Below are positions 37,845 through 54,198 of a DNA stretch of 64,000 nt, piece after piece. Source of the DNA: Luteolibacter luteus (GTDB taxonomy: Bacteria; Verrucomicrobiota; Verrucomicrobiia; Verrucomicrobiales; Akkermansiaceae). The DNA lies in contig NZ_CP051774.1 in NCBI RefSeq assembly GCF_012913485.1, positions 434,001-498,000 on the forward strand. Reading direction: 5' to 3'. The stretch's first letter is position 1. Each line of letters starts with the position of its first letter. The notes under the pieces were generated by a model. It had not been told where the DNA came from. It did no database searches and worked only from the letters and a program-made list of their open reading frames with translations. The translations under genes and the position numbers were made by a program.

Positions 37845-39872
37845 ATGAAAAACCAACTCGCGAGGTTGCCCCACCTCTGTGTTGGCCTTCTTGCCCTGAC
37901 TGCCCTGCTCCCCGCCCCTGTGTCCGCGGCCGAACCCGCGCAGACACCCAATCCCATTGGTCGCGTAGCCCGGTTATTCAATCGCAAGCTGGTCGATACG
38001 GAAGACCGGATCCGTTGGCTCCAAGGCCGCTTGGACAACCTCGCCGATTTTACGGAGAAGCCCCTCAAGGAAACCATCGGATGGCGCTGTGGTTTGGAAG
38101 ACGAAGCCACCGGCGATCCTTGGATCTGCCTTGATTTCGGGAAGGACATTTCCCTGGATCACCTTTTCCTCGTTCCGGCCCAGACACAGCCGGGCGAGAC
38201 CAATGACCTGTTCCCCCGCCGCTTCCGGATCGAAGCCGCAACTCAGGAAGATTTTTCCGATAGCCGCCAGATCTATCGCACCGGCGGCATGGCCCACTCT
38301 TCGCCGCAGGGCTTTCCGGTCCAGATCAATGGCGACGGGGGCTCTGCCCGCTACGTCCGGCTGACCTTGGAAGAAGGCCACCGCCGCGGCCTCGCGGGTG
38401 TCTGCGCCCTCTCGGAAATCTTCGTCTTCTCGGATCGCATTCCGGTTTCCTTCGGGGCGAAAGTCACGGCCTCTCATTCGGTGGATGTGCCCGGAGTCTG
38501 GGACCCCTCATTCGTCGTGGACGGACGCACCCCGCTCGGCGTCTGGCAAGGCGGCCTCTGGGCACCCTCGCACGGCGACTGCCTGGAGGTGCCCGGTGAC
38601 AACCCGAAGGTCGAGTGGGTCCTCGATCTCGGCCAAGAGGCACCCGTCGACCGCGTGATCCTCTTCCCCTACGCCGTCCCGGAACTCTCCGGCCCGGGAG
38701 TAATTCCGCCAGTCCTCAAGCTGGAGTTGGCCGGCAAAGCCGATTTCAGTGACGCCAAGTGCATCGCCGATACCGGCCCGCGTGACCTGCCGGTGGATCT
38801 CACCACCCCTGTCGTGCTTCCTTCCCCGGAGGCCAAGGGGCGCTACCTCCGGATCACCTCGGAGCGGGCATGGCAGCTCGGCAACCGCCATTTGCAAGCA
38901 CTGGGAGAAATCGAAGTCTGGTCCGGAAACCGGAATCTCGCCTCGGGTCGGGAGGTGACCGCCATCCACGGCGGCATCGAGCAGCCCTCCGAGGAACTCA
39001 CCGATGGCTCGGGCTATCGCTACCAGATCCTCCCCATCCACTCCTGGCTCACCCAGCTCGTGGAAAGGAATCATTTCCGCCAGGAAATGGACATCCTCAG
39101 CTCCGCCCGGAAGACCATGGCATCGGAGAGCGAGCTGAATACCACCTGGGGCGCCGCCATCGCCCTCGGCCTGACCTTCCTGATCCCCGTCGCCATCGTC
39201 GAACGCCGCCGCCTGGTCTCCCGCACCCAGCTCGACAAGCTCCGCAAGCGCATCGCCTCCGACCTGCACGACGACATCGGCAGTAACCTCGGCAGCATCT
39301 CCCTCATCGCACGCTCCGCGAAGCGCGACCTGGAGCGCCTCAAGGGCCCGGACGAGGTGGCCCACGACCTCGGCGAGGTGGAAACCATTGCCCGTGAAAG
39401 CTCCTTGGCCATGCGGGACATCGTCTGGCTCTTGGAACGCCGTCAGGACACCATCGGTGACCTCGTCCAGCGGATGCGCGATTGCGCCGCCCGCCTTCTG
39501 CGAGAAGTCGAGTATTCGCTCGTCTGCCGGTCCTCGAAAACCACCGCAAAACTCACGCTGGACTCAAAACGCCATCTTTTCCTCTTCTACAAGGAGGCCC
39601 TTCACAATATTGTTAAGCATTCCAAAGCGACACTGGTCACCGTGCGGCTCTACGATGCCCGCGACCGGCTGGTGATGGAAGTGAGCGACAACGGCATCGG
39701 CCTGCCTCGCGACGCCGAAGATCAGATGGCAGCCGTGAAAAAACTTACCGATCGCGCCAGGGTGCTGGAAGGTACCCTGCACGTGGAATCATCCCCTGGA
39801 GCCGGCACAACACTGCGCCTTTCCGTGAAACGAACCAGCCTGATGGCTACTAAAGCTACCGCCAATGAGTGA
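37845..39872 (+). CDS. Sensor histidine kinase with two discoidin-like extracytoplasmic domains
   Basis: 675 residues. A signal peptide (1-28) is followed by two beta-sandwich regions with F5/8 type C (discoidin) character, about 75-195 and 205-360: PWICLDFGKDISLDHLFLV, SARYVRLTLEEGH, KVEWVLDLGQEAPVDRVILF and GRYLRITSE. A membrane helix (about 435-453) leads to a HisKA_3 domain with His475 in SDLHDDIGSNLGSISL and a HATPase with SDNGIGLP. Discoidin folds bind carbohydrates or lipids, so the sensed ligand may be a glycan. The gene overlaps the LuxR-type regulator by 8 nt, a standard kinase-regulator pair. Confidence 0.9.
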   Translation: MKNQLARLPHLCVGLLALTALLPAPVSAAEPAQTPNPIGRVARLFNRKLVDTEDRIRWLQGRLDNLADFTEKPLKETIGWRCGLEDEATGDPWICLDFGKDISLDHLFLVPAQTQPGETNDLFPRRFRIEAATQEDFSDSRQIYRTGGMAHSSPQGFPVQINGDGGSARYVRLTLEEGHRRGLAGVCALSEIFVFSDRIPVSFGAKVTASHSVDVPGVWDPSFVVDGRTPLGVWQGGLWAPSHGDCLEVPGDNPKVEWVLDLGQEAPVDRVILFPYAVPELSGPGVIPPVLKLELAGKADFSDAKCIADTGPRDLPVDLTTPVVLPSPEAKGRYLRITSERAWQLGNRHLQALGEIEVWSGNRNLASGREVTAIHGGIEQPSEELTDGSGYRYQILPIHSWLTQLVERNHFRQEMDILSSARKTMASESELNTTWGAAIALGLTFLIPVAIVERRRLVSRTQLDKLRKRIASDLHDDIGSNLGSISLIARSAKRDLERLKGPDEVAHDLGEVETIARESSLAMRDIVWLLERRQDTIGDLVQRMRDCAARLLREVEYSLVCRSSKTTAKLTLDSKRHLFLFYKEALHNIVKHSKATLVTVRLYDARDRLVMEVSDNGIGLPRDAEDQMAAVKKLTDRARVLEGTLHVESSPGAGTTLRLSVKRTSLMATKATANE

Positions 39873-40521
39873 CACCACCACCGCCCCGCTCCGGATCTGG
39901 ATTCTTGAGGATCACGCGAACTTCGCGAAACAGATCACCCGGCTCATTTCGGGCGAAGATGATCTGATCTGCGAAAAGGCGTTCTCTCACCCGGACGACC
40001 TCTTTGCCGAGCTGAACTACTGCACCTCCCCGCCGGACTTGCTGATGCTCGACCTCGGCCTCCCGGGGAAAGACGGCCTGCAGGTGCTGCGCGAGGTGAA
40101 GGTGAAGGTGCCGGAACAGAAGGTCGTCATCCTGACCTCCTTTGACGACCGCGAGCGCGTCTATCGCGCCATCTGCAACGGGGCATCCGGCTACCTGCTG
40201 AAAACCGCCGACCCGGACGATATCCTTTCCGGCATCCGCGATGTGATGCAGGGCTCCGCCGCACTGAGCAGCCCGATCGCGAACATGATTCTCGAAGGCT
40301 TCGCCAAGCACGGCCCTGTCGATGAGACCGAACCCCTCACCTCCCGCGAGGAAGAGGTCCTGCGCCTGCTGGTGAAGGGCTTCATCAAGAAGGAGATCGG
40401 CGATCAGCTCGACATCTCCCAGCACACCGTGGACATGCACCTGCGCAGCGTCTACCGGAAGCTGCATGTCCGCACCCAGACGGAAGCCGTCTCGAAGGCG
40501 CTGCGGAAAGGATTGGTGTAA
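39865..40521 (+). CDS. Response regulator, NarL/FixJ (LuxR-type HTH) family
   Basis: 218 residues: a receiver domain (about 8-125) with acidic start ILEDH, the phosphorylated Asp63 in LLMLDLGLPGKD and the invariant Thr/Lys switch region (ILTSF, YLLK), then a LuxR-type helix-turn-helix (about 155-218, EPLTSREEEVLRLLVKG and ISQHTVDMHLRSVYRKL). It is the cognate partner of the upstream kinase, whose gene it overlaps. Target genes are unknown. A terminator follows the stop by 30 bp. Confidence 0.95.
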   Translation: MSDTTTAPLRIWILEDHANFAKQITRLISGEDDLICEKAFSHPDDLFAELNYCTSPPDLLMLDLGLPGKDGLQVLREVKVKVPEQKVVILTSFDDRERVYRAICNGASGYLLKTADPDDILSGIRDVMQGSAALSSPIANMILEGFAKHGPVDETEPLTSREEEVLRLLVKGFIKKEIGDQLDISQHTVDMHLRSVYRKLHVRTQTEAVSKALRKGLV

Positions 40522-40691: not shown

Positions 40692-41978
40692 ATGACGGGA
40701 AAACGCGGGCTGACCCAGCAACATGTGGCACGGATGTTAGGCGGGGATAGCGTCGAGGACGCGGCGGCACGGCTAGCACCGGATTTCAAGGACCTGCCAA
40801 AGGTCCCGGCAGGCAGCGCAAAAGTCAGCCGCGAGCGTGCCGGGGAGCTCTGGGAAGAGACTGGCCTGCCCACCCGCCTGAAGGAGATCCTCTTGGATCA
40901 ATCCCCCGGCGATCTCTCGGTCTATCAAGGGAATATCGAAAACGCCATCGGCGAGATGCGCATGCCCTTGGGCCTCGCAGGGCCCCTCCGCGTGAATGGC
41001 GTCTCCGCAAAGGGTGACTTCCACATTCCCCTCGCCACCACGGAGGCCGCCCTCGTCGCGAGCTACCACCGCGGCTGCCGGCTTCTCACTGCCGCAGGCG
41101 GATGCTCCGCGCTGGTGCTTTATGAGAGCCTGAGCCGGGCACCCTCGTTCGTCTTCGATACCTTCTCCGAAGCCAGCCGCTTCACCGTTTGGGCCGTGGA
41201 TCAATTCGAGACCTTCCAACAGGTCGCCGGCACCACCACCTCGCATGGCAAGCTCGTCGATGTCGGTGTCACGCTTGAAGGAAACCACGCCTACTTCAAT
41301 TTCGAGTTCACCACCGGCGATGCCTCCGGCCAGAACATGGTCACCATCGCCACCCAGGCGATCTGCGATCACATCCTGGCCCACACGCCGATCCAACCGC
41401 AACGCTACTACATCGAGTCGAACCTCTCCGGCGACAAGAAGGCCAGCACCCGTGCCTTCACCACCACCCGCGGCAAGAAGGTCACCGCAGAGGCCCACCT
41501 TTCCGCAGAGCTGGTAAAGAAGCACCTCCACACCACGCCTCGCGCCATGGAGCAGTACTGGCAGATGTCCGCCATCGGCGGCGTGCTCAGCGGCACCCTC
41601 GGCATCCACGGCCATTTCGCGAATGGCCTCACCGCCCTCTATCTTGCCACCGGCCAGGATGCCGCTTGCGTCGCCGAATCTGCAACCGGCGTGACCCGCT
41701 TCGAGGTGACCGAGGATGGCGGACTCTACGCCTCCGTCACCCTGCCCGGCATCATGGTCGGCACCGTGGGAGGCGGCACCGGCCTGCCAACCCAGAAAGC
41801 CTGCCTCGAACTCATGGGCCTCGCAGGCGCAGGCAAGTCCCGGGCCCTCGCCGAAGTCTGCACCGGCCTCCTCCTCGCCGGCGAACTCTCGATCATCGGT
41901 GCCCTCAGCGCCGGCCACTTTTCACGCGCCCACCGCAAGCTCGCCCGCGACCGCCAGAAAGGCAGCAAGGAGAGCTGA
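40692..41978 (+). CDS. Hydroxymethylglutaryl-CoA reductase, class I-like
   Basis: 428 residues. It carries the class I HMGR signatures: ENAIGEMRMPLGLAGPL, ATTEAALVAS with catalytic Glu118, TGDASGQNM (NADPH-binding) and GTVGGGTGLPTQ. The other catalytic residues are Lys249/250 in SGDKKAST, Asp323 in GQDAACV and His414 in SRAHRKLAR. It reduces HMG-CoA to mevalonate, the committed step of the mevalonate pathway. Most Verrucomicrobia make isoprenoids by the MEP pathway, so this single gene is unusual; no mevalonate kinase or decarboxylase is seen here. It is upstream of the UbiA operon on the same strand, separated by repeats. Confidence 0.9.
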   Translation: MTGKRGLTQQHVARMLGGDSVEDAAARLAPDFKDLPKVPAGSAKVSRERAGELWEETGLPTRLKEILLDQSPGDLSVYQGNIENAIGEMRMPLGLAGPLRVNGVSAKGDFHIPLATTEAALVASYHRGCRLLTAAGGCSALVLYESLSRAPSFVFDTFSEASRFTVWAVDQFETFQQVAGTTTSHGKLVDVGVTLEGNHAYFNFEFTTGDASGQNMVTIATQAICDHILAHTPIQPQRYYIESNLSGDKKASTRAFTTTRGKKVTAEAHLSAELVKKHLHTTPRAMEQYWQMSAIGGVLSGTLGIHGHFANGLTALYLATGQDAACVAESATGVTRFEVTEDGGLYASVTLPGIMVGTVGGGTGLPTQKACLELMGLAGAGKSRALAEVCTGLLLAGELSIIGALSAGHFSRAHRKLARDRQKGSKES

Positions 41979-42019
41979 AGAAGGCACGACCACGAGTGAA
42001 TGGCCATCGGAGCACTCTG

Positions 42020-42200
42020 AATCCCCGACGGGGCGACCGGGAGATAGCCCAGGGTAAGCGCGCAACACACAGCATCTAGAGCCCCAACGGGATGATCGGG
42101 AGATAGCCCAGGGTAAGCGCGCAACACACAGCCTCTAAAGCCCCAACGGGGCGACCGGGAGATAGCCCAGGGTAAGCGCGCAGCGCGCAACCCTGGGTAT
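42020..42200. repeat. Three tandem copies of a 59-bp repeat with internal hairpin
   Basis: Copies of a unit containing GGGAGATAGCCCAGGGTAAG start near 42039, 42098 and 42157 (period 59); each includes CCCAACGGG-like and AAGCGCGCAACACACAGC segments, and the last copy ends AGCGCGCAACCCTGGG, which pairs with its own CCCAGGGT. Similar TAGCCCAGGGT repeats are common in verrucomicrobial and planctomycetal intergenic regions. Confidence 0.75.
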
Positions 42201-42375
42201 CCACGGAAAAGGAATCGCACCCTGAAAGGGTGCCGGGAGCCCACTAACTTCTCCCGTCCCGCTTTAGTCGATCCTGGCAGTAGAAACCCACCCCGCCATC
42301 TTCGAAACTCCCTTCCAGCATGTCCTCCAAAGCCACTTCGACCTCACCCCACCCTCTTCACGCCCCCCCAAACCC

Positions 42376-42412
42376 GCCTGTTAATTTCCCTGTTATAACA
42401 GGCGGAACAGGC
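42376..42412 (+). repeat. 37-nt dispersed palindromic repeat, copy B
   Basis: Aligned with copy A at 3776-3812 without gaps and 33 of 37 identical: GCCTGTTA at the left and TAACAGGC then AACAGGC at the right. Located 102 bp upstream of the UbiA start, again next to a C run and ahead of a plus-strand gene. Confidence 0.7.
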
Positions 42413-42513
42413 CGCAAATCCCAAGCATCCCGATCGTCCCGACCCGCACTTGCACCATCACTGAGACTCGTTAGAGTGGCACGGGGAAAAGAGTCCCTTC
42501 CTTGGTCGCCACC

Positions 42514-43416
42514 ATGACAATTCTCCAGAGGCTGTGGACATACCAGAAGGAGCGCTTCCCGCTCTTCGCTCACGGCCCTCTCATCGCAGCCTTCAGCGCC
42601 TGCGCCGTCTCCTTCTCCTCGCTGATCCGCCACGCCCCTCCTCCCGGTTGGGACATGTACCTGACCGCCTTCGTCGTCTGCCTGCTGATGTTCCTTCAGC
42701 TTCGCATCGCGGATGAGTTCAAGGATGCCGAGGACGACGCCCGCTGGCGCCCCTACCGCCCCGTGCCCCGCGGCCTGATCAAGCTCTCCGAGCTGAGGAT
42801 CCTCTTCATCGTCACCGCCGCCATCCAGCTCGGCTTGGTCCTTTGGCTTGATCCACGCCTTACCTGGGTGCTCGGCATCGCATGGACCTACCTCGCCTTG
42901 ATGAGCGTGGAGTTCTTCTGCCGGGATTGGCTGAAGGCCCGCCCCATCGTCTACCTCGTGAGCCACATGGGCATCATGCCCCTCGTGGACTTCTTCGGCA
43001 CCGCCTGCGAATGGTTGCCACGTGCCGGATCTCCACCCGGCGGGCTCGGTTGGTTCCTTGCCGCCAGTTTCTTCAATGGCATCGTGATCGAGCTCGGACG
43101 CAAGCTTCGTCAGCCCGCCGATGAGGAGGAAGGCGTGGAAACCTACAGCCGCCTCTGGGGCATGAAGGGTGGCGTCCTCGTCTGGCTCGCCACCCTTGCC
43201 GTCACCTTCACCTGCGCCGTGGTGGCCTCGCAGGCGATCCACTTCATGCGCCCGGTCTGCATCGGCCTCGGCCTGGTCTTCGGCTTCGCCCTCTGCACCG
43301 GCTGGCGCTATCTCGCGAAGGGCGCCTCCGGGAAGAAGATCGAAATGATCTCCGGGATCTGGACCCTCGCACTCTATCTCCTCCTCGGCCTCATTCCGCT
43401 GTGGCTGCATTCTTGA
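42514..43416 (+). CDS. UbiA-family prenyltransferase
   Basis: 300 residues from the ATG at 42514; a TTG 12 bp upstream is less likely. It is polytopic with about eight helices. The first Asp-rich motif reads RIADEFKDAEDDARWRPYRP, which matches the NDxxDxxxD-type diphosphate/Mg2+ site, and a second polar motif is GRKLRQPADEEEGVE. The enzyme should transfer a prenyl group from a diphosphate donor to an aromatic or other acceptor. It is the first gene of a six-gene unit with overlaps and lies behind HMG-CoA reductase, suggesting an isoprenoid product. EboC-like enzymes also belong here, but the other ebo genes are missing. Confidence 0.85.
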   Translation: MTILQRLWTYQKERFPLFAHGPLIAAFSACAVSFSSLIRHAPPPGWDMYLTAFVVCLLMFLQLRIADEFKDAEDDARWRPYRPVPRGLIKLSELRILFIVTAAIQLGLVLWLDPRLTWVLGIAWTYLALMSVEFFCRDWLKARPIVYLVSHMGIMPLVDFFGTACEWLPRAGSPPGGLGWFLAASFFNGIVIELGRKLRQPADEEEGVETYSRLWGMKGGVLVWLATLAVTFTCAVVASQAIHFMRPVCIGLGLVFGFALCTGWRYLAKGASGKKIEMISGIWTLALYLLLGLIPLWLHS

Positions 43417-43420
43417 AACG

Positions 43421-45862
43421 ATGAATCTTCTCTTCCCTGGGACCAGCAGCAGCCGCTTCGGCGGAAAAGGCGCGGCGCTCGCCAAGCTCGGCGAAGCGGG
43501 CTTCGATGTCCCCGCATGGTTCGCCGTGCCGCCGGAAGCCACTTGGGAAACAGGCGACCTCACCAACGCCCTCGCCCAAGTCGGTGAAGGCCCCTTCGCC
43601 GTGCGATCTTCCGCCACCATGGAAGACGGTGCCGGGCATTCCTTCGCGGGGCAATTCGAGACCTTCCTGGAAGTCCCGGCTTCCGAGGTCGAACAACGCA
43701 TCCGCGACGTCCGTGATTCCTCAAAGCGCGAGGCCGTGCTCACCTATTGCCGCGAACGCGGCCTGCCGCTTCCGGAGCCACCCACCGTTCTGGTCCAGCG
43801 GATGATCCAGCCGCGCTGCGCGGGAGTTGCTTTCTCTGCCGATCCTGTCTCCGGCCAGCGCAGCGTCGCCGTGGTATCTGCAGTGGAAGGCACCGGCGAA
43901 AAGCTCGTCTCCGGTGAGGTCGATGGCGAGGACTGGCGCATCGGCAGCGGGACGGCCTCATCGCCCGGGAAGCTACTCTCCGAAAGCGAAGCCCGCGGGA
44001 TCGCAACCTTGGCAAAGCGCTGCGAGAAACACTTCGGCCGGCCGCAGGACATCGAGTGGGCCATCGATCGGGCAGGAAAGCTCTGGCTTCTGCAATCGCG
44101 CCCCATCACCACGCTGGCGAACCAAGCCGATCCCGATGACACCCTGCGTGTCTGGGATAACAGCAACATCGCCGAAAGCTACGGCGGCGTTACCACGCCC
44201 CTCACCTTCTCGTTCGCTCGGCGGATTTACGAATCCGTCTATCGCGAGTTCTGCCGCTTGATGTCGGTTCCGGCCGAACGCATCGAGCGCTCCGATGACG
44301 TCTTCCCGCAGATGCTCGGCCTTATCCGTGGCCGCACCTACTACAACCTTGCGAGTTGGTATCGCGTGCTCGCCTTGCTCCCCGGCTTCCAGTTGAACCG
44401 CTCTTTCATGGAGCAGATGATGGGCGTGAAAGAGCCCCTGCCGGAATCCTTGGTCCAAAAGATCATCGCGGAGTCCACCGTCAGCCGTTCCGCCGACATG
44501 CGGGCACTGGTCGGCACCTGCCTCGGCCTCCTCAGGCAGCTCCGCGGACTCGACAAGCAGATCGCGTCTTTCCAAGTCCGGCTCGACCGAGCCCTCGCCC
44601 CACCACTCGTGCCTCTCGCCCAAATGAGCGGCGAGGATCTGGTGAGCCACTACCGCGACCTCGAGCGGAAGCTCCTCAAGCGCTGGGACGCACCATTGGT
44701 GAATGATTTCTTCGCCATGATCTTCTACGGCGTGCTCCGTAGTTTGTGCACCAAGTGGGCGGGCGATAACAGCGGCACCCTCCAGAATGATCTTCTGGCA
44801 GACACCGGAGGCATTATCAGCGCCGAGCCACCACGCCGCATCATCCGCATGGCGAAGCTCGCCAAGGAATCCCCCGGTCTCCCCGCCTTGCTCGCATCGC
44901 CTGAAACTCCGGAGAAGGAGAAGCTCGCCGCGCTCTCACGGCATCCCGAGCTTTCCAAGGAGTTCCAGCGCTACCTCGATGAATTCGGTGATCGCTGCTT
45001 GGAAGAGCTGAAACTGGAGAGCCCCACGGTCCGTGACGATGCCACCACCCTGCTTGCCTCCATCGGTGCCCTCGCCCTCCGCCAGCAATTGCCCGAGGAA
45101 AGCAGGACCGAGCCCACCAAGCCTCCCGCCATCGGCAATCCGCTCAAAAGCGGGATCTTCAGCTATGTGCTGCGCCAAGCTCGCGAACGCGTCCGCAGCC
45201 GGGAGAATCTCCGCTTTGAGCGCACCCGTCTCTTCGGCCGGGTCCGCAGCATCCTTCGGGAACTCGGCAAGCGCCTGCACGCCGATGGCCAACTGGAATC
45301 CGCCGACGACATCTTCTACCTGGAGCTCGGCGAGGTGCTGGCCACATGGGAAGCCACCGGCACCATTCTCAAGCTGGGCGATCTGGCAGCCCAGCGCCGC
45401 GCGGAGTTCGCGATCTATCAAAATGAAACCCCGCCGCCCGATCGCTTCGAGACCCACGGTCCCGTCCATCGCTACACCGTCTTCGAAGAGACGCGGAAAC
45501 AGGAAGAAGCCGCTGGAAACACGGAAGGAATCAAGGGCATCGGGGCTTGTCCCGGGAAGGTCACCGGCCGTGTCCGCGTCGTGCTCGATCCACGCGGAGC
45601 CCGCCTTGAACCCCGAGAAATTCTCGTCGCCCTACAGACCGACCCTGGCTGGGTAGTTCTTTTCCCCGCTGCCTCAGGTCTCCTTGTCGAGCGCGGCAGC
45701 CTGCTATCCCACTCCGCCATCGTTTCCCGCGAACTGCGCCTGCCCTGCATCGTGTCGCTGCCACGCATCACCACCACGCTGAAGACCGGTGATCTGGTGG
45801 AGATGGATGGCAGCACCGGCAGCGTCCGTATCTTGGAATCCCCAGCCACCTCCCTTTCATGA
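43421..45862 (+). CDS. PEP synthase / rifampin phosphotransferase-like protein
   Basis: 813 residues in three parts: an N-terminal ATP-binding (PPDK_N) domain (about 1-230, with SSATMEDGAGHSFAGQ and WLLQSRPIT), a central helical domain (about 240-690) with many charged residues, and a C-terminal swivelling phosphohistidine domain (about 700-813) with the catalytic His764 in GSLLSHSAIVSRELRLP. Such proteins move phosphate from ATP via a phosphohistidine to pyruvate or to a small alcohol, as in rifampin phosphotransferase; a PEP/pyruvate barrel is lacking here, so a small-molecule or lipid acceptor is more likely. It starts 4 bp after the UbiA stop, and its end overlaps the next gene by ATGA. 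Confidence 0.85.
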   Translation: MNLLFPGTSSSRFGGKGAALAKLGEAGFDVPAWFAVPPEATWETGDLTNALAQVGEGPFAVRSSATMEDGAGHSFAGQFETFLEVPASEVEQRIRDVRDSSKREAVLTYCRERGLPLPEPPTVLVQRMIQPRCAGVAFSADPVSGQRSVAVVSAVEGTGEKLVSGEVDGEDWRIGSGTASSPGKLLSESEARGIATLAKRCEKHFGRPQDIEWAIDRAGKLWLLQSRPITTLANQADPDDTLRVWDNSNIAESYGGVTTPLTFSFARRIYESVYREFCRLMSVPAERIERSDDVFPQMLGLIRGRTYYNLASWYRVLALLPGFQLNRSFMEQMMGVKEPLPESLVQKIIAESTVSRSADMRALVGTCLGLLRQLRGLDKQIASFQVRLDRALAPPLVPLAQMSGEDLVSHYRDLERKLLKRWDAPLVNDFFAMIFYGVLRSLCTKWAGDNSGTLQNDLLADTGGIISAEPPRRIIRMAKLAKESPGLPALLASPETPEKEKLAALSRHPELSKEFQRYLDEFGDRCLEELKLESPTVRDDATTLLASIGALALRQQLPEESRTEPTKPPAIGNPLKSGIFSYVLRQARERVRSRENLRFERTRLFGRVRSILRELGKRLHADGQLESADDIFYLELGEVLATWEATGTILKLGDLAAQRRAEFAIYQNETPPPDRFETHGPVHRYTVFEETRKQEEAAGNTEGIKGIGACPGKVTGRVRVVLDPRGARLEPREILVALQTDPGWVVLFPAASGLLVERGSLLSHSAIVSRELRLPCIVSLPRITTTLKTGDLVEMDGSTGSVRILESPATSLS

Positions 45863-46965
45863 GCAAGTCCGAGATCCAGCACCGCGCCGATTTCTCCGCC
45901 GTCCGCTATGCCCAGTGCTGGGAGGATTCCCTGCTGCTGGTAGAAGCCATGAAACCCGCCGGCAGGCATTGCCTCAGCATCGGTTCGGCCGGTGACAATA
46001 GCTTCGCACTCCTCGCCGCGGGCGCGGCCTCCGTCACGGCCGTGGAAATGAATCCCACCCAGGTCGCCTGCATCGAACTACGGAAAGCGGCGTACTTGCA
46101 GCTCGATCACTCCGGCTTCCTCGAACTCCATGGCTCGCGGCCATCCTCGCGCCGGGCATCGCTCTACCGCGAATGCCGGGACCTGCTCCCCGCTCCCGCG
46201 CGCGAATTCTGGGACGCCCGTCCCGAGGCCGTCGAGGGCGGCATCGGTGGCTGCGGGAAATTCGAGAATTACTTCAAGCTCTTCCGCTCCAAAGTCCTGC
46301 CCATCGCCCATCCGCGGAAGCGAGTGCTGTCCTTGATGCAATCCCGCTCGCCCGACGAGCGGCTGAAGTTCTATGAGGAGGTCTGGAATAATCGCCGCTG
46401 GCGCTCCATCTTCCATGTCTTCTTCTCCCGCGCGCTGATGGGTGCCCTGGGCCGCGATCCGGAGTTCTTCAAATACGTGGAAGGCTCGGTGGCGGAACGG
46501 ATCCTTTCCCGCACCCGCCACGCATTGGCGGTGCTCGATCCCTCGGCCAATCCTTACCTCCACTGGATCCTCACCGGGACCCACGGCGATCACCTGCCTT
46601 ATTCGCTCGAAGCATCCAACTACGCACTGATCCGCAGCGCCCTCCAGCAGGACCGCTTCCGCGTGGTGGAAAGCCCCATCGAGGCACTGCTCGAAGCCGA
46701 GCCGGCCAAGCGCTACGATGCCTACAATCTGAGCGACATTTTCGAGTATATGAGCGAGGCAAACACCGAAAAGCTGCTGCGCACCTTGGTCGCCGCTTCG
46801 AATACCGGCGCGCGTCTCGCCTACTGGAACATGCTCGCCCCACGCTCCCGCCCGGAATCGATGGCGGACCTGTTGAAGCCTTGTGAAGAGGAAGCCCAGG
46901 CCCTCTTCAAGCAAGACCGCGCCTTTTTCTACAGCCGCTTGGTGGTGGAGGAGGTGCGCGGATGA
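45859..46965 (+). CDS. DUF3419 / BtaA-like S-adenosylmethionine:lipid 3-amino-3-carboxypropyltransferase
   Basis: 368 residues matching DUF3419. BtaA moves the 3-amino-3-carboxypropyl group of SAM to diacylglycerol to make diacylglyceryl-homoserine, the first step of betaine lipids. Recognisable are YAQCWEDSLLLVEAM near the N-terminus, the SAM-binding CLSIGSAGDNSFALLAAGA (motif GSAGDNS), and AVEMNPTQVACIELR. The methyltransferase BtaB, which would finish DGTS, is absent from the operon; a GNAT enzyme two genes on could acylate the free amine instead. Coupled by ATGA at both ends. Confidence 0.85.
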   Translation: MSKSEIQHRADFSAVRYAQCWEDSLLLVEAMKPAGRHCLSIGSAGDNSFALLAAGAASVTAVEMNPTQVACIELRKAAYLQLDHSGFLELHGSRPSSRRASLYRECRDLLPAPAREFWDARPEAVEGGIGGCGKFENYFKLFRSKVLPIAHPRKRVLSLMQSRSPDERLKFYEEVWNNRRWRSIFHVFFSRALMGALGRDPEFFKYVEGSVAERILSRTRHALAVLDPSANPYLHWILTGTHGDHLPYSLEASNYALIRSALQQDRFRVVESPIEALLEAEPAKRYDAYNLSDIFEYMSEANTEKLLRTLVAASNTGARLAYWNMLAPRSRPESMADLLKPCEEEAQALFKQDRAFFYSRLVVEEVRG

Positions 46966-48281
46966 CGGTTCAGGAATGGCTGGCCATCGCGGGCGTGCTC
47001 GCGGCACTCATGCTCGGCCTGCCGCTGTTCCGCTGGCTCTGCGAGCGCAGCGGTGCCTCCGCGGAGGCATCCCGGAAGTCGGTCCATGTTGCCATGGGCC
47101 TCGCCTGTGCCGCCTTCCCATGGATCTTCGATCGCCCTCTGCCGGTGTGGATCCTCGCGGCCCTCGCCACCTTGCCCTTGCTGCTCCTGCGCTGTGTCCC
47201 CGCGCTGCGCTCGGGCCTCGGCTCCACGCTGCACGGGGTAAAGCGCGTCTCCTATGGCGAGATCCTCTTCGCCCCGGCAGTGGCCGCGGTCTTTGACCTC
47301 TCGAATGGCGATACCTTGCTCCACGTGATTCCGGTCGGAATTCTCACCGTCGCCGATGCGGCCGGTGCCATCGCCGGAACGAAATGGGGCCACCGCTTTT
47401 ATGCCTGCGGCACGGGCAGAAAGAGTGCTGAAGGCTCCGCGGCCTTTCTTGTAGTCGCCTTCCTCTGCGCTTTCCTTCCCCTCATCCTCACCGGGCGGGT
47501 CGATGCGTCCTATGCCGTCTGGATCGCGCTTACCCTCGCGGTGCTATCGATGATGGCGGAAGGCATCTCCGATCGCGGCTTCGATAACCTCATCATCCCT
47601 CTTGGCTGCCACTTCATCCTCGCCCGCTTGCTGGCCAGCGACATGCCGCACCTGATCACCCGCTTCACGGCGGCCGTGATCCTTCTCGGCATCGTGACGG
47701 CAGGCGCACGTCATAGCACCCTCAGCGGCAGCTCGCTGATTGGCGGTGCCTTGCTCGGCTACGGTTGCGCGATCCTTGCCGATCCCCGCTTCACGCTTCC
47801 CCCTCTCGCGATCTTCTTCAGCCACCTGATCACCACTCGCCGCCACAAGCTTACCGGGGTCTTCGACCATCGTCTCGATGCCGTGATCTCCCACGCCATC
47901 GGCTGCCTCAGCTGGTCGCTGGCCGTGAACCTCGGATGGATCGATTCCGTTACCGGCCTCTGCGGCGTTTCCTTTGCAATGGCGGTGCAGCTTGCGATGG
48001 CCGATGTGGCCACGCAAACTTGGCTGCATTCCACCAAGCCGCAGCTCCTTCGTGCTACCATCAAGGGTTGGTTGGTCGGGGCGCTCCCCGGCCTGATCTG
48101 GCTCTGGCAAGACGCCATCCGGATCGCGCCGGTCCTGGCCATCGTGCTCATCCTGACTCCCGTTGCCTGCCTGCTTTCCCACTGGATCGAATCCCGCTAC
48201 GCTGGCAGCCCCACCCGGCTCTGGATGATCAAAGGGACACTCTCCTTCCTGGCTTCAACTCCTGCCCTGCTCCTCCGATGA
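46962..48281 (+). CDS. Phytol/dolichol/diacylglycerol kinase-like membrane protein (SEC59/DGK1/VTE5 type), double length
   Basis: 439 residues, polytopic. The first half has the CTP-dependent lipid-alcohol kinase features: ASRKSVHVAMGL (the R-K-x-x-H motif, residues 38-42), VADAAGAIAGTKWGHRF and GTGRKSAEGSAAF. Such kinases phosphorylate phytol, dolichol or diacylglycerol. The second half (about 220-439) is another bundle of helices with SSLIGGALLGYGCAILAD and KLTGVFDHRLDAVISHAI, possibly resembling the DUF92/VTE6 family (phytyl phosphate kinase); this resemblance is weak. Normal VTE5-like proteins have 200-300 residues, so this one looks like a fusion. It overlaps neighbours by ATGA on both sides. 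Confidence 0.75.
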   Translation: MTVQEWLAIAGVLAALMLGLPLFRWLCERSGASAEASRKSVHVAMGLACAAFPWIFDRPLPVWILAALATLPLLLLRCVPALRSGLGSTLHGVKRVSYGEILFAPAVAAVFDLSNGDTLLHVIPVGILTVADAAGAIAGTKWGHRFYACGTGRKSAEGSAAFLVVAFLCAFLPLILTGRVDASYAVWIALTLAVLSMMAEGISDRGFDNLIIPLGCHFILARLLASDMPHLITRFTAAVILLGIVTAGARHSTLSGSSLIGGALLGYGCAILADPRFTLPPLAIFFSHLITTRRHKLTGVFDHRLDAVISHAIGCLSWSLAVNLGWIDSVTGLCGVSFAMAVQLAMADVATQTWLHSTKPQLLRATIKGWLVGALPGLIWLWQDAIRIAPVLAIVLILTPVACLLSHWIESRYAGSPTRLWMIKGTLSFLASTPALLLR

Positions 48282-49270
48282 ACGAACCCCGATACCTGAT
48301 TCATGAAGGCTCCGACCTTCCGGAGATCCCGGTGGCCGATGGTTTGAGCCGGCCCGAAGCCTTGGCAGGACCGGAGGAAGCCATGGATGCCCGCGTCTTC
48401 ATCACCGATGATGAAGGCCGCTCGATCGGTCATGCGGCGCTGTGGTGGAGCGACGCACCGCCGCTGGAAGGCCACAAGCCCGGCACCATCGGCGGCTTCG
48501 ATTCCACGGACGAGGCCACCGCGATCCAGCTTCTGGAAGTCGCCACCAGCTATCTCCGCAAGCTCGGCTGTACGCTCGCGATCGGACCGATGAACGGTAA
48601 CACTTGGCGCCGCCATCGCTACGTCATCGGAAGCAGCGGCCGTGGCCCCTTCCTCCTCGAGCCGCGCAATCCCGCGCCTCATCCCATCTGGTGGCATGCT
48701 GCGGGCTTCGAAGAGCTTTCCCGCTACTCCTCCTCGCTGATGCCGCTCGACGGAGAAGCCGCCGTTTCCCCCGCATTGAAGGAGCGCTTGGAGAAATCCG
48801 GCATCGTCATCCGTCCGCTCGACGCCTCCCGCTACGACGACGAACTGCGCACGATCCACGAAATCAGCCTGAAGAGCTTCTCGAACAACTTCCTCTACAC
48901 ACCTCTGGAGGAAGACTCATTCATCGCTTCCTATCGCAAGGTGAAGGATCGCGTGGACCCGGATTTTGTTCGTATCGCCGAGAAGGATGGCGAGACCTGC
49001 GGCTTTGTCTTCGCCATCGCCGACCTCGAATCGGCCGCCCGGGGCGAGAAGCCCGCACTCATTGTCAAGACACTGGCCGTCGACCCCTCCTCCCGCAGCG
49101 CCGGACTCGGCAGCCTCCTGGTCGATGAGGTTCACCGTCTCGGCCGCGAGAAAGGCTTCACGGAAGCCATCCATGCCTTGCAGCATGAAACGAATACCTC
49201 GCTGAAAATCACCGGCCGCCATCATGGCGAAGCTTTCCGTCGCTACGCGCTCTTCTCGAAACCACTATGA
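48278..49270 (+). CDS. GNAT-family acyltransferase, tandem-GNAT YghO-like
   Basis: 330 residues starting MNEPRYLIHEGS at the ATGA overlap (48278-48281). The N-terminal half has a degenerate GNAT fold with TIGGFDSTDEATAIQLLEVA and LAIGPMNGNTWRRHRYV, as in YghO-like proteins. The C-terminal half has a full GNAT acetyl-CoA/acyl-CoA site: VKTLAVDPSSRSAGLGSLLV (Q/R-x-x-G-x-G/A region). The enzyme may transfer an acyl group to an amine. Its position between the lipid kinase-like gene and the acyl-activating ligase fits N-acylation of an aminolipid, but the substrate is unknown. Confidence 0.85.
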   Translation: MNEPRYLIHEGSDLPEIPVADGLSRPEALAGPEEAMDARVFITDDEGRSIGHAALWWSDAPPLEGHKPGTIGGFDSTDEATAIQLLEVATSYLRKLGCTLAIGPMNGNTWRRHRYVIGSSGRGPFLLEPRNPAPHPIWWHAAGFEELSRYSSSLMPLDGEAAVSPALKERLEKSGIVIRPLDASRYDDELRTIHEISLKSFSNNFLYTPLEEDSFIASYRKVKDRVDPDFVRIAEKDGETCGFVFAIADLESAARGEKPALIVKTLAVDPSSRSAGLGSLLVDEVHRLGREKGFTEAIHALQHETNTSLKITGRHHGEAFRRYALFSKPL

Positions 49271-50865
49271 ACCTCGTAGCGATCCTGCGCGAACGCGCCG
49301 TCATGCATCCCGACCGCCCGGCGCTCGTCGACCGGTGGAAGGGCAAGGATCGCTCGATCAGCTTCCGCGAACTTCAGGATCGCGTCGAGCGGGGCTCCGC
49401 CCGCCTCCAGGAACTCGGACTGAAGCGCGGCAGTACAATCATGGTCCTGCACCCCATCGCGATCGAACTCTACGAGATCCTGCTCTCCGCCTTCCACTCG
49501 GGCATGCGCGTGATGCTCGTCGATCCCGGCGTGGGCAAGGGCTTCATCAGCAACTGCTGCAAGCGAGTCGCACCCGATGCCTTCTTCGGCTCATGGAAAG
49601 CCCAGATGCTGCGCTACTTCGAGCACGGCCTCAAGCAGGTCCCGCTGAAGATCCGCTCGGGGGCATGGTTTCCGGGCACCGTGCCTTGGCAAAAAAACCT
49701 TGAAGGCAAAGCCCTCACCGACCTTCCCGAAGACGAAGCCGCTCTCATCACCTTCACCAGTGGCAGCACCGGCGCACCGAAAGCCGCCGTGCGTACCCAT
49801 GGCTTCCTGATCGCCCAGCACAAGGCGCTTTCAAAGGCACTGGACTACGAGGATGGCGAAGTCGATCTGGTCACCCTGCCCGTATTCGTCCTTGCGAATC
49901 TCGCCTCCGGACTCACCAGCGTGCTTGCGGACTTCAAACTCGGAAAAGACGGCTCTGAGGGAGCGGCACGAGTGCGCGAACAATGCCTCCGCTATCACGT
50001 CACGCGTTGCGCGGCATCACCCCACTTCTTCGAGGTGATGCTCACCGTACCGGATTCGATGGCCACGCTGAAGAAGGTCTACACCGGCGGTGCCGCGGTC
50101 TTCCCGGAGCTGATGAAGCGGCTGACCAATGTCTTGCCGGAATCATCCATCACCGCCGTCTTCGGCTCCACCGAGGCCGAGCCCATGGCCCACCTTGATG
50201 TCCGCGAGTATGACCTCGTGAAGATGACGATGACCAGCGAAGGCTATGGCCTCTGCGCGGGACATCCGGTGGAGGAAGTCGAACTGCGGATCATCAAGAA
50301 CAGCTGGGGCACTCCCTTGAAGGCACTCGACCCGGCGTCCTTCGATTCCATGACCCTGCCGCAAGGCCAACCCGGTGAAGTCGTGGTCACGGGTGATCAT
50401 GTCCTCTCCGGCTACCTCGGCGGCGTGGGCGATGAAGAGACAAAGATCCACGTCGGCGGCAAGGTTTGGCACCGCACCGGCGATGCCGCATGGCTCGACA
50501 AAAACGGCTGCCTCTGGCTGCTCGGTCGTTGCTCGGCCAAGCTGCCCTCCTCGCCCGTGGCACCACCGGAACTACCTGAGGGCGCACTGGATTACCCCTT
50601 CGCCATCGAGGCCGCTGTCGGCATGCGTTACCCGCAGGTTGTCAGCGCCGCCATCGGATGGAAGGACAAGCGCACACTCGTCTTCGGCCATGGCCAACCC
50701 GACCCGGCCACGTCCGAGGAAATGGCACGGGAGTTCGAAACACTCGGCATCCAACAAGTCATCTTCGCAGGCGGCAAGCTGCCCATGGATCGACGCCATC
50801 ATGCTAAGATTGATTACCCCGCTCTCCGCGCGATGCTGGAAGCGCGCGAGGCAAAAGCCTCCTGA
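49267..50865 (+). CDS. AMP-dependent ligase, OleC/fatty acyl-activating type
   Basis: 532 residues of the adenylate-forming (ANL) superfamily. The ATP site is FTSGSTGAPKAAVRTHG; further motifs are GSTEAEPMAH and HRTGDAAWLDKNGCLW, and a C-terminal Lys in MDRRHHAKIDYP that helps adenylation. The stretches GHPVEEVELRIIK and WLLGRCSAKL recall OleC (beta-lactone synthetase) and related fatty-acid ligases. It activates a carboxylic acid as an acyl-adenylate. It overlaps the GNAT gene by 4 nt and is last in the UbiA-to-ligase operon; the next gene is 190 bp on. Confidence 0.88.
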   Translation: MNLVAILRERAVMHPDRPALVDRWKGKDRSISFRELQDRVERGSARLQELGLKRGSTIMVLHPIAIELYEILLSAFHSGMRVMLVDPGVGKGFISNCCKRVAPDAFFGSWKAQMLRYFEHGLKQVPLKIRSGAWFPGTVPWQKNLEGKALTDLPEDEAALITFTSGSTGAPKAAVRTHGFLIAQHKALSKALDYEDGEVDLVTLPVFVLANLASGLTSVLADFKLGKDGSEGAARVREQCLRYHVTRCAASPHFFEVMLTVPDSMATLKKVYTGGAAVFPELMKRLTNVLPESSITAVFGSTEAEPMAHLDVREYDLVKMTMTSEGYGLCAGHPVEEVELRIIKNSWGTPLKALDPASFDSMTLPQGQPGEVVVTGDHVLSGYLGGVGDEETKIHVGGKVWHRTGDAAWLDKNGCLWLLGRCSAKLPSSPVAPPELPEGALDYPFAIEAAVGMRYPQVVSAAIGWKDKRTLVFGHGQPDPATSEEMAREFETLGIQQVIFAGGKLPMDRRHHAKIDYPALRAMLEAREAKAS

Positions 50866-51054: not shown

Positions 51055-52005
51055 ATGCCTCGCAAGCCACCGGTCCTTCTCATCTCCTTCAATCGCCCGC
51101 ATCTCTCGCAGCGGGTCTTCGAGCGGATCCGGATCTACCAACCGGATCGCCTCTACCTTGCCGTCGATGGCCCGCGCGCGGAGGAGACCCATCCGCGCGA
51201 TGCCGCTGGCGTGGCCGCCTGCAAGGATCTCGCCCAAGCCGTCGATTGGCCCTGCGAAGTCTTCACCCGCTTCTCCGATGTCAATCAGGGCTGCGGTCGC
51301 GGCGTGAGCAATGCGATCACCTGGATGTTCGAGCAAGAAAGCCACGGCATCATCCTGGAGGACGACTGCGTCCCGGAGCCGACCTTCTTCGATTACTGCG
51401 CGGATCTTTTAGATCGCTACCGGGATCACCCGCAGGTCATGCACGTCAGCGGCAACAACTTCGGCGGCGAGGGCACTGCGGAAGCCTGCGCGCCGTTCAG
51501 CTACGCCTTCACCCGCTACGCCGATCTCTGGGGCTGGGCCACTTGGGCGCGGGCATGGGCGCACTTCCGCTACCAGATCCCTCCACCGGCAGAGGTACCG
51601 AAGTCGCACTTTATCCAGGAAGGCGTGGACCGCTACCGCCAGTATGCACAGCGCGATCGCGTGCTCTCCACCCGGCAGAAGACCAGCATGTGGGGCTACC
51701 AGTGGCAGTATGCCGTGCTGAAAAACCGCGGCCTCTGCGCCGCACCCGCCGTGAACCAGATCTCGAATACCGGCTTCGGCGAGGAAGCGACCCACACCAC
51801 CGGAAGCGGCAGCCTCCACGCAGCGAATGTCCCCACCACCCCGCTCACTTTCCCCCTCTCTCACCCGCCGGAGGTCGTCGTCTCGCCGCGATACAACCGC
51901 ATCTACGCCGATAACGTGCTGGGAACCACCGGCCGCTACCGCAAGCGCTACCTGAAGCGCTGGATCCGCACCCTGCTGATCCCTGGCTACGTGCCGAAGA
52001 AGTGA
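51055..52005 (+). CDS. Glycosyltransferase, GT-A fold (family 2-like)
   Basis: 316 residues with a nucleotide-sugar-binding GT-A domain: PVLLISFNRPHLSQRVFERI at the N-terminus, the metal-binding EDDCVPEPTFFDYC (DxD-like), and VMHVSGNNFGG. The family includes hypothetical glycosyltransferases of surface-polysaccharide loci. No signal or membrane helix. It is followed 4 bp later by a nitroreductase-like gene and then by a polysaccharide pyruvyl transferase, so it probably builds an exopolysaccharide or capsule. Confidence 0.82.
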   Translation: MPRKPPVLLISFNRPHLSQRVFERIRIYQPDRLYLAVDGPRAEETHPRDAAGVAACKDLAQAVDWPCEVFTRFSDVNQGCGRGVSNAITWMFEQESHGIILEDDCVPEPTFFDYCADLLDRYRDHPQVMHVSGNNFGGEGTAEACAPFSYAFTRYADLWGWATWARAWAHFRYQIPPPAEVPKSHFIQEGVDRYRQYAQRDRVLSTRQKTSMWGYQWQYAVLKNRGLCAAPAVNQISNTGFGEEATHTTGSGSLHAANVPTTPLTFPLSHPPEVVVSPRYNRIYADNVLGTTGRYRKRYLKRWIRTLLIPGYVPKK

Positions 52006-52009
52006 CGCC

Positions 52010-53047
52010 ATGCGATTCCTCCGCCGCCTGCTCCGCAAGCTCGACCCCGTCCTCGCCCGCGCGGCAGCCCGCAGCCGGCTCGGATCGTCCCTTTACTACG
52101 GCATCTATCGTACCGATTTCCTCCGGGAGCAGCGCTCCTTCGCCGCCGGTCGCCAAGCCTATCAGGATTCCCTTGCGAAACCCGGCAGCAGCATGGCCAT
52201 CCTCCGCCGGAATGTTCACCGCATCGAAAAAGGCCTGCTAATGCAGCCGCGGCGAGTCCCCTTCGCCCTCGATTACATCGGCGAGACCGTCGCCGCCTTC
52301 GCCACCGCCTGCAAGGCTCCGCTGGAGGCCGAGGAATTCGCCTGGGGCCGCGATGTCCTCTCCGAGTACTTCGCCGTCCACGAAAAGGAAGCGAAAGCAA
52401 ACCCCCACGCCGAAAAGTTCTACACCGCCCTCTCCACATCCGGCTGGATCGCCGACGAAAGCACGCCGCGCATCCCTTATCGCCGTGATACCGCGGCGCC
52501 CCTGCCTGTCGATCTCGAGTCCCTGCGCGCCCTCGCCCGTCATCGTCGATCGGTGCGCTGGTTCTTGCAGAAGCCCGTGCCCCGTAGCGCCATCGATGCC
52601 GCCATCGAGATCGGCACTCAGGCACCCAGCGCCTGCAACCGCCAACCCTTCGAGTTCCGCATCTTCGATGACCGCGAGCTGGTGGAGCAGGTCATCGATA
52701 TCCCCTTCGGGCTCGCTGGCTATGGCCACAATGTCCCCGTGCTCATCGTCGTCGTCGGACAGCAGCGGAATTTCTTCAGCGAGCGCGACCGCCATCTCAT
52801 CTACATCGATGCCTCACTCGCTGTCATGGGCCTGCTCTACGGACTCGAAGTGCAGGGCCTCAGTTCCTGCTGCGTGAACTGGCCGGACATCGAGGAAAAC
52901 GAAACGCGCATGGCGGAGCTGCTCAAGCTCTCCGCCGACGAGCGCCCCGTCATGCTCGTCGCTCTCGGCTATCCCGATCCCCAGGGCATGGTCGCCCGCT
53001 CCGTGAAGAAAAGCCTGCCCGTGATCCGCCGCTACAATTTCGAATGA
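52010..53047 (+). CDS. Nitroreductase-family flavoprotein with N-terminal extension
   Basis: 345 residues: about 165 N-terminal residues of unknown fold rich in basic residues (MRFLRRLLRKLDPVLARAAA), then a nitroreductase domain with RHRRSVRWFLQKPVP, AIEIGTQAPSACNRQPFEF (FMN-binding), and GLSSCCVNWPDI. Such enzymes reduce substrates with FMN and NAD(P)H. Similar proteins occur in polysaccharide loci next to pyruvyl transferases, where their role is unknown. It overlaps the next gene by 4 nt. Confidence 0.85.
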   Translation: MRFLRRLLRKLDPVLARAAARSRLGSSLYYGIYRTDFLREQRSFAAGRQAYQDSLAKPGSSMAILRRNVHRIEKGLLMQPRRVPFALDYIGETVAAFATACKAPLEAEEFAWGRDVLSEYFAVHEKEAKANPHAEKFYTALSTSGWIADESTPRIPYRRDTAAPLPVDLESLRALARHRRSVRWFLQKPVPRSAIDAAIEIGTQAPSACNRQPFEFRIFDDRELVEQVIDIPFGLAGYGHNVPVLIVVVGQQRNFFSERDRHLIYIDASLAVMGLLYGLEVQGLSSCCVNWPDIEENETRMAELLKLSADERPVMLVALGYPDPQGMVARSVKKSLPVIRRYNFE

Positions 53048-54198
53048 AGCAGCCCCTCACCATCGAGATCCACGGCACCGGTACGCACAACCGCGGCGCG
53101 GAGCTCATGGCCATCGCCATCGCCGAACGCCTGCGCGCGAAGTATCCCGGCGTCCGCATCGTCGTGCCACCCGGCTTCGGTGATTTCGAAGCACGCGCAC
53201 GCCACGGCTTCTGGACCACCTGGGAGTTCTCGCGCCGCTGGCAGAGCCGCTTCGCCGCGAAGTGGATCCAGCGCTACTCGAAGGACATCGAGGAAGCCTC
53301 CGGCATCGTCGATCCCTCGGAGATCGATGTCGTCCTGGACGCCTCCGGTTTCTCCTTCTCCGACAAGTGGGGCCCGAAAGGCGCACGCCATCTCCTGAAG
53401 AGAATGACGCGCGGAGGTCGCGCAGGAAAGCCCCTCGTTCTCCTCCCCCAGGCCTTCGGTCCTTTCACCCAGCCTGAAGTCGCAGACGCCACCCGCAAGC
53501 TCTGCCAGCGCGCGAGCCTAGTCTGCGCCCGCGATGCACGATCACGCGAGGAAGTGCTGAAGCTCGCCACCTTGCCCACGCTGCGCGTCTATCCGGATTT
53601 CACCGTCGGCATCAAGCCGCAGCGCCCGGCCAACCTGCGTATCCCCGAACAATTCTCCGCCGTCGTCCCGAACCAGCGCATGGTCGACAAGGGCCAGTCC
53701 GGCGAAGCTTACCTCGGCTTCATTGGCGCGGCAGTGCACTCCCTCAAGCGCCGCGGCCTCAATCCCGTCTTCCTCCTTCACGATGCCAACGATGACCGCA
53801 AGGTCGTCTCCGCCATGAGGGAACGTGGCATCGACATCCCCGTCCTGGAGCACGAGGACGCCCGTGTCTTGAAAGCCATCCTCGGCAAGGCGACGCTAGT
53901 CATCGGCTCAAGATTCCACGCCCTCGTCAGCACCCTGTCCCAAGGCCTCCCCGCCATCGCCGCCGGCTGGTCCCACAAGTATCCCGAACTCTACGCTGAC
54001 TTCGGATGCCCCGAGTTCCTCATCGGCGACCTCGCCGACGATGCCCTGTTAGAAGCAGCCATCGATCGCCTCGCCACCCCGGAAGGACGCGCCTCTTATA
54101 AGCAGCGCCTCCAGGAAGCCGCCACCCGCATCAAGGCCCAGAACGAAGCCATGTGGACCGAAGTTGAAGCGGTGATCCACGCGAGCCAAACAAGGTAA
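53044..54198 (+). CDS. Polysaccharide pyruvyl transferase
   Basis: 384 residues of the PF04230 family, which adds pyruvate ketals from PEP to sugar residues of exopolysaccharides. Evidence: IEIHGTGTHNRGAELMAIAI start (GxNxGAxL-like), the LVLLPQAFGPF motif, ARDARSREEVLKL, the SRFHALVSTLSQGLPAIAAG site with Arg-His, and WSHKYPELYADFG. It is coupled to the upstream nitroreductase by an ATGA overlap. The product is probably an acidic surface polysaccharide. About 170 bp separate it from a convergent methyltransferase gene. Confidence 0.9.
   Translation: MKQPLTIEIHGTGTHNRGAELMAIAIAERLRAKYPGVRIVVPPGFGDFEARARHGFWTTWEFSRRWQSRFAAKWIQRYSKDIEEASGIVDPSEIDVVLDASGFSFSDKWGPKGARHLLKRMTRGGRAGKPLVLLPQAFGPFTQPEVADATRKLCQRASLVCARDARSREEVLKLATLPTLRVYPDFTVGIKPQRPANLRIPEQFSAVVPNQRMVDKGQSGEAYLGFIGAAVHSLKRRGLNPVFLLHDANDDRKVVSAMRERGIDIPVLEHEDARVLKAILGKATLVIGSRFHALVSTLSQGLPAIAAGWSHKYPELYADFGCPEFLIGDLADDALLEAAIDRLATPEGRASYKQRLQEAATRIKAQNEAMWTEVEAVIHASQTR

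Follow-up and report, generated by a model that had tools for sequence, protein, structure and literature searches.

A conserved seven-gene operon of Luteolibacter luteus with a probable FcrA-type reductase and a BtaA-like protein, possibly for an undescribed lipid

The stretch analyzed here (the window) comprises 64,000 nucleotides of Luteolibacter luteus, positions 434,001-498,000 of the forward strand of NZ_CP051774.1, and coordinates given without a genome label are those of the window. It contains seven genes that, judging by their joint conservation, form a real, co-inherited operon which is patchily spread over distant bacterial groups. The first of them encodes a homologue of class I hydroxymethylglutaryl-CoA (HMG-CoA) reductase (HMGR) that bears the marks of a fatty-alcohol-making enzyme of the FcrA type; to read it as an isoprenoid enzyme is probably wrong. 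The reading that we favor, at a probability of roughly 0.45, is that the operon may join a fatty alcohol to the aminocarboxypropyl unit of S-adenosylmethionine (SAM) in an undescribed lipid, N-acylated and phosphorylated and/or prenylated. The gene set, its conservation and the FcrA-type residues of the first protein can be read directly from the sequences; the product and the steps towards it are inferred.

The seven genes form a conserved operon

The genes and the repeat array that lies among them are the following:

40692-41978, + strand: HMGR-like gene (Pfam HMG-CoA_red, E 8.8e-113)
42015-42189, + strand: three tandem copies of a 57-nt repeat at a spacing of 59 nt, between the HMGR-like and UbiA genes
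42514-43416, + strand: UbiA-family membrane transferase gene (Pfam UbiA, E 6.5e-13; open frame listed from TTG 42502)
43421-45862, + strand: phosphoenolpyruvate synthase-like (PEPS-like) gene for a dikinase-type phosphotransferase (Pfam PPDK_N, 2e-45; PEP-utilizers, 1.3e-21)
45859-46965, + strand: DUF3419 (BtaA-like) gene, probable SAM-dependent transferase (Pfam E 4.1e-61)
46962-48281, + strand: VTE5/CdsA-like polytopic membrane protein gene (no Pfam match)
48278-49270, + strand: GNAT acyltransferase gene (Pfam Acetyltransf_1, E 5.7e-8)
49267-50865, + strand: AMP-forming acyl ligase gene of the PRK09274/OleC-like group (Pfam AMP-binding, E 9.4e-47)

Of the five junctions from the UbiA gene to the OleC-like gene, four are ATGA overlaps of 4 bases, and at the other one 4 bp (43417-43420) lie between the genes. 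These places, the single strand and the tight junctions agree with an earlier prediction made for this stretch, and most of its family names were recovered by Pfam; the exceptions are the VTE5-like protein, which has no Pfam match, the OleC-like protein, which falls below the OleC cut-offs, and the PEPS-like protein, which lacks a barrel match. The same prediction described a unit of six genes behind an HMG-CoA reductase. The head-to-tail arrangement of the six stands, but the HMGR-like gene belongs to the same unit as its seventh member: in a genome of the same genus (L028), only 11 bp separate it from the UbiA gene. In the window this distance is 535 bp and includes the repeat array, which has 29 matches genome-wide, the window copy counted, and is an interruption of the operon, not a working part of it.

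The conservation of the set was studied at two scales. Among 288 genomes of the phylum, 21 have relatives of the DUF3419 protein at E <= 1e-10; 17 of these genomes have a close one (260 bits or more) and four have distant relatives only. Neighborhoods were compared in the 16 close-relative genomes besides that of the window and in two of the four distant-only genomes. At least one further gene of the operon adjoins the DUF3419 gene in 15 of the 16 close loci; at the remaining one (L034) none does, and its genome (G189) holds an HMGR-like gene elsewhere. None of the other operon genes was found in the neighborhood of the two distant relatives (L044, L045). Eight phylum loci have at least 8 kb on both flanks, with all seven genes in five of them and the six genes other than HMGR in seven. 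A scan of the genome_contigs collection (84,980 species) confirmed at least 550 DUF3419 relatives, the best 80 of which were examined, a gene being counted as present if it gave a tblastn match anywhere in the available stretch of about 20 kb. Within these best 80 of at least 550, 36 loci have at least 8 kb on either side of the BtaA-like gene; all seven genes are present in 31 of them and the six genes other than HMGR in 32. The earlier prediction had proposed a check of joint conservation, and these counts indicate that the genes are kept together. The order HMGR-UbiA-PEPS-BtaA-VTE5-GNAT-OleC is found in 37 of the best 80 loci and GNAT-OleC stands in front in nine, while many of the remaining ones end at contig ends. 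Rearranged operons usually preserve the blocks HMGR, UbiA-PEPS, BtaA-VTE5 and GNAT-OleC.

Isolates with all seven genes include Haloferula luteola, Rubritalea profundi, Natronospirillum operosum, Alkalilimnicola ehrlichii, Methylomonas sp. SURF-1 and Desulfobulbus rhabdoformis. The full set is likewise present on a Roseinatronobacter plasmid, whose gene table lists six of the seven and names two of these hypothetical protein; the HMGR is omitted from that table because the gene spans the start of the record, but both of its pieces match (50% and 54%) and the FcrA-type Glu is present. The tree of BtaA-like proteins, built from the window and 79 of the best 80 loci (80 rows, two of them unlabelled), contains 18 phylum labels with 26 label changes, the least possible being 17. 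The number of transfers cannot be taken from this tree, since the labels were derived from record titles and bins may contain foreign contigs. The set has no conserved eighth gene, flanking families being common to at most 8 of 96 loci.

The first protein carries FcrA-type residues

The HMGR-like protein of the window has the catalytic residues E83, K249, D323 and H414, and these four (Glu, Lys, Asp, His) are retained in all 65 HMGR homologues encoded with the cluster. Their substrate pocket is changed. They were compared with 26 canonical proteins, namely 19 others from the phylum, two solved structures and five HMGRs that cluster-bearing genomes have as a second copy. The position of human Ser684 is Glu (E242 in the window) in 65/65 cluster proteins and Ser in 26/26 canonical ones, and that of human Leu862 is Phe (Phe410) in 65/65 and Leu in 26/26. 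The position of human Lys735, which is Lys in every canonical protein (26/26), is Met292 in the window and, over the 65 cluster proteins, Met in 40, Val in 15, Phe in three, Ala, Ile and Thr in two each and Leu in one, mostly not small residues. Ser684 and Lys735 are reported to bind the HMG moiety or a statin analogue (PMC9500038, PMC3875450). At the neighboring position 291, a basic residue (Arg or Lys) is found in 49 of the 65 cluster proteins and 24 of the 26 canonical ones; the site thus still has some charge despite the loss of Lys735. Binding of a substrate amine by E242, considered at first, was given up in favor of the FcrA-type interpretation (PMC11948995).

FcrA was described by Grossi et al. 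2025 (PMC11948995) as a reductase of fatty acyl-CoA that is akin to class I HMGR, one FcrA having been assayed; the example given there has Trp in place of Leu862 and Gly in place of the carboxylate-binding Lys, numbered Lys795 in that paper and Lys735 elsewhere and generally replaced by small residues in FcrA. As far as that description goes, the cluster proteins share with FcrA the catalytic residues, the change of Ser684 to Glu, the loss of the carboxylate-binding Lys, a bulky residue instead of Leu862 and many hosts without a mevalonate pathway. They differ in that the bulky residue is Phe here and Trp there and that the Lys position is mostly Met or Val, not a small residue. Judging by the numbering (E83 here, Glu236 in FcrA), the long N-terminal carrier domain that certain FcrA have is missing from the cluster proteins, and the seven-gene context is a further difference, as neither 'UbiA' nor 'gene cluster' occurs in the main text of the FcrA paper (PMC11948995). 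In a tree of 25 HMGRs, made up of cluster and canonical proteins only, the 18 cluster proteins form a single branch (support 100/100) apart from the seven canonical ones. With the window protein as query, HMGR matches were found in 57 of the 288 phylum genomes; 11 of these score 369.9 bits or more, the next one 214.7, and all 11, which are of the cluster type, also have a close DUF3419 gene.

The isoprenoid context of the genomes

The genome of the window (G000) has no match to HMG-CoA synthase, whereas the same model has matches in 4 of 14 control genomes, and no diphosphomevalonate decarboxylase over the cut-off. The synthase is present in five of the 15 phylum genomes with the DUF3419 gene and in none of the other ten, and it was found in none of eight genomes behind other loci. 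The five genomes with HMG-CoA synthase also have a diphosphomevalonate decarboxylase over the cut-off and a second, canonical HMGR elsewhere. A role in mevalonate supply was dropped in view of the absence of the two enzymes together with the separate canonical HMGR of the five relatives. That the protein is an ordinary HMGR adding mevalonate to the methylerythritol phosphate (MEP) route is very improbable: it does retain the four catalytic residues and match both Pfam and TIGR00533, but its TIGR00533 score of 326.8 is under the cut-off of 441.8. In the original prediction, the HMG-CoA reductase pointed to isoprenoid synthesis; this argument is probably wrong in view of the FcrA-type residues, the lack of HMG-CoA synthase and of a diphosphomevalonate decarboxylase over the cut-off in its own genome and the second HMGR of five relatives. 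A prenyl part of the product is still possible through UbiA.

A search for geranylgeranylglyceryl phosphate (GGGP) synthase gave nothing in 13 of the 15 genomes, that of the window included; partial matches were found in G243 (25.1 bits, cut-off 23.9) and, below the cut-off, in G056. An archaeal-type ether lipid, with UbiA as digeranylgeranylglyceryl phosphate (DGGGP) synthase and the VTE5-like protein as CarS, was dropped because of these 13 genomes. As a side observation on the isoprenoid genes, the window's genome has two IspH-family matches (G000:C1:5358298-5359317 and 3390317-3391081) that differ in strength, one of them being the weaker and the other strong, and the same holds for three relatives.

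The DUF3419 protein

The DUF3419 family is that of BtaA, the SAM:diacylglycerol 3-amino-3-carboxypropyltransferase of btaAB systems. The cluster protein shares with BtaA the Pfam family and a similar SAM-site region. It has 32 of 77 near-invariant residues in common with a Rhizobium protein (L173), while its conserved motif NLSDIFEY is its own. In L173 a BtaB-type methyltransferase gene lies beside the DUF3419 gene; according to Pfam, no BtaB-type N-methyltransferase is among the other six genes of the cluster, nor is there a conserved eighth gene. A search of PDB sequences with the DUF3419 profile gave no match at E <= 1, and Foldseek searches with models of the DUF3419 and VTE5-like proteins gave none at E <= 0.001. 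A different DUF3419 neighborhood is found in the Rhizobium plasmid pMK-2 (L174, 1177-4655), with a protein annotated as CoF synthetase, a hypothetical protein and an MBL hydrolase gene just before; it is possibly another uncharacterised small cluster.

The other enzymes of the operon

The UbiA protein scores 49 bits against a Pfam cut-off of 34.2. Its D67, D71 and D75 belong to the set conserved in at least 97% of 76 sequences, E193, R196, K197, R199 and E204 are conserved in the second motif region, and it is weakly similar to DGGGP synthase (E 0.039). The PEPS-like protein has a PPDK_N domain and a His mobile domain with His764, but the C-terminal barrel that binds PEP or pyruvate gave no Pfam match. 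Its best solved match is 5fbs, which is titled phosphoenolpyruvate synthase and which we take to be rifampin phosphotransferase. ATP-binding and phospho-His domains, His764 included, are common to this dikinase and the PRK06241 dikinases or rifampin phosphotransferase, whereas its scores are below every displayed model cut-off, that of the PRK06241 group included. Its matches to PigC and RedH, models of prodigiosin ligases, are likewise below the cut-off.

The VTE5-like protein (439 residues) has no match in Pfam and a fold match not above the chance level for helical models, and it differs from the VTE5/dolichol kinase/CdsA group by an extra C-terminal half. It is possibly a CTP-dependent lipid-alcohol kinase, though the evidence is weak. 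DUF92 matches weakly in that C-terminal half: five of 59 members match at E <= 0.1, the best at 0.0036, and one of them lies at residues 240-336 (E 0.04). A VTE5-VTE6 fusion was considered at first, but this match is too weak to support it. For the ligase, the best NCBIfam model is PRK09274, followed by two OleC models (306.6, 195.2 and 175.3, against cut-offs of 478, 900 and 850), and no PDB match was found at 1e-20. In contrast to OleC systems, no thiolase, hydrolase or dehydrogenase partner is present among the seven genes.

Operon variants and neighboring genes

Two loci, L110 (4634-9917) and L122 (4656-9925), have no VTE5-like gene and instead encode a second dikinase, a SnoaL-like protein and a large protein of the class III aminotransferase family. 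Pfam identified these three in L110 alone; the L122 counterpart of the aminotransferase protein shows 65% identity to that of L110, and L083 has a partial one. Neither locus has an HMGR in the available stretch, which extends less than 1.2 kb upstream of UbiA and is filled by another gene. The L110 protein is a fusion: it matches the aminotransferase 4ppm, presumably PigE of prodigiosin synthesis, and its C-terminal part matches the acyl-ACP reductase 6jzq (E 6e-12). Acyl-thioester reduction therefore seems common to both forms of the operon, which fits FcrA better than the making of mevalonate. In another variant (L087, 11092-12783), a natural fusion of 563 residues joins VTE5-like and UbiA-like domains, the latter with 28 bits in Pfam, below the cut-off. 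MMPL-type genes lie beside L087 (by Pfam) and beside L082 and L065 (by similarity), and genes for a P450 and a sulfotransferase adjoin L072.

Just upstream of the operon in the window (37845-40521) lie genes for a histidine kinase, which matches F5/8 type C below the threshold, and for a response regulator of the LuxR type. The pair is kept in the same-genus L028 (75% and 94% identity) and has no match in L029 or L030. After the operon (51055-54198) come a protein without a Pfam match, a nitroreductase-family gene and a polysaccharide pyruvyl transferase gene, unmatched in the compared neighbor loci except for one nitroreductase-like match in L074.

Proposed product and alternative explanations

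Several products could be imagined for this gene set. In the scheme that we favor, the FcrA-type reductase would convert a fatty acyl-CoA, with NADPH, into a fatty alcohol, and the DUF3419 enzyme would transfer the 3-amino-3-carboxypropyl group of SAM to an alcohol. The acceptor is a guess; most simply it would be that same fatty alcohol, giving O-alkyl-homoserine. The OleC-like ligase could then activate a carboxylic acid and the GNAT enzyme acylate the amine, which would yield a two-chain, glycerol-free amino-acid ether lipid, and the VTE5-like protein, the dikinase and UbiA might provide its head or tail by adding phosphate and a prenyl group or something similar; the order of acylation and of these last steps could be swapped. 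This fatty-alcohol and SAM aminolipid was preferred because four of the proteins have a task in it, namely the reductase, the GNAT enzyme, the ligase and the DUF3419 enzyme; what UbiA, the dikinase and the VTE5-like protein would do is far less certain. The homoserine-type unit and the N-acylation were already part of the original prediction and are kept as the best guess. The product would probably be membrane-bound and, in some hosts, exported. The main difficulty for this scheme is that four genomes bearing the operon (G006, G117, G230 and G084) have no HMGR at all.

Alternatively, the operon might make a small secondary metabolite, such as a signal, a pigment-like compound or a bioactive alkyl or prenyl compound, whose scaffold would be built and capped by the ligase, the dikinase and the GNAT enzyme. 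This is somewhat unlikely. The patchy spread, which is no proof of transfer, the plasmid copy, the P450 and sulfotransferase genes, the resemblances to prodigiosin enzymes and the likeness of the ligase to beta-lactone synthetase models, below their cut-offs, would suit such a metabolite; yet the loci share no recurring gene for a carrier protein, a synthase or resistance, most of the enzymes are of membrane or lipid types and MMPL-type genes accompany three loci. The prenylated homoserine-type lipid, made by the VTE5-like kinase and UbiA with the HMGR-like protein for isoprenoid supply, seems quite unlikely: UbiA is above its family cut-off, resembles DGGGP synthase weakly and is fused to a VTE5-like domain in L087, but the HMGR pocket is changed in all 65 proteins, HMG-CoA synthase is missing from the window's genome, and 13 of the 15 phylum genomes, its own among them, show no GGGP synthase, one of the two partial matches being just over the cut-off. 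It is hardly credible that the operon makes wax esters or an ordinary betaine lipid of the diacylglyceryl-trimethylhomoserine type. The match to DUF3419, the family of BtaA, would agree with the latter, but the seven genes lack the methyltransferase that adjoins the rhizobial DUF3419 gene. Wax esters are what the haloarchaeal FcrA is reported to serve (PMC11948995). Nevertheless, a wax synthase of the wax ester synthase/diacylglycerol acyltransferase (WS/DGAT) type was found in none of the 15 phylum genomes, where no control matched either, and is absent from seven of the eight other genomes; the same model matched in the eighth, and therefore it works.

Novelty and implications

Described enzyme families exist for every part of the operon but the VTE5-like protein, and FcrA has been published. 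What appears to be new is the combination of the seven genes, an apparently undescribed operon akin to bacterial ether and amino lipid operons. The original prediction that no described pathway has this set agrees with the titles and abstract openings listed from open-access PubMed Central, in which no description was found; the Lipocone paper, in the parts consulted, mentions HMGR and UbiA in other contexts (PMC12419801). There is a real chance that the product belongs to a new lipid class. The stronger proposal of a glycerol-free class of membrane lipids, N-acyl-O-alkyl-homoserine with phosphate and/or prenyl groups, made by a single mobile operon in many phyla, is unlikely; such a class would have escaped notice under the names that annotation gives to its genes, which are HMG-CoA reductase, PEP-binding, DUF3419 and hypothetical proteins.

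The wax synthase is missing in 22 of the 23 cluster-bearing genomes searched, and every phylum genome with an FcrA-type gene carries a close BtaA-like gene (11/11). Should the product be a lipid, it would occur across many phyla, and the annotation of class I HMG-CoA reductases in bacteria with the MEP route would often mislead.

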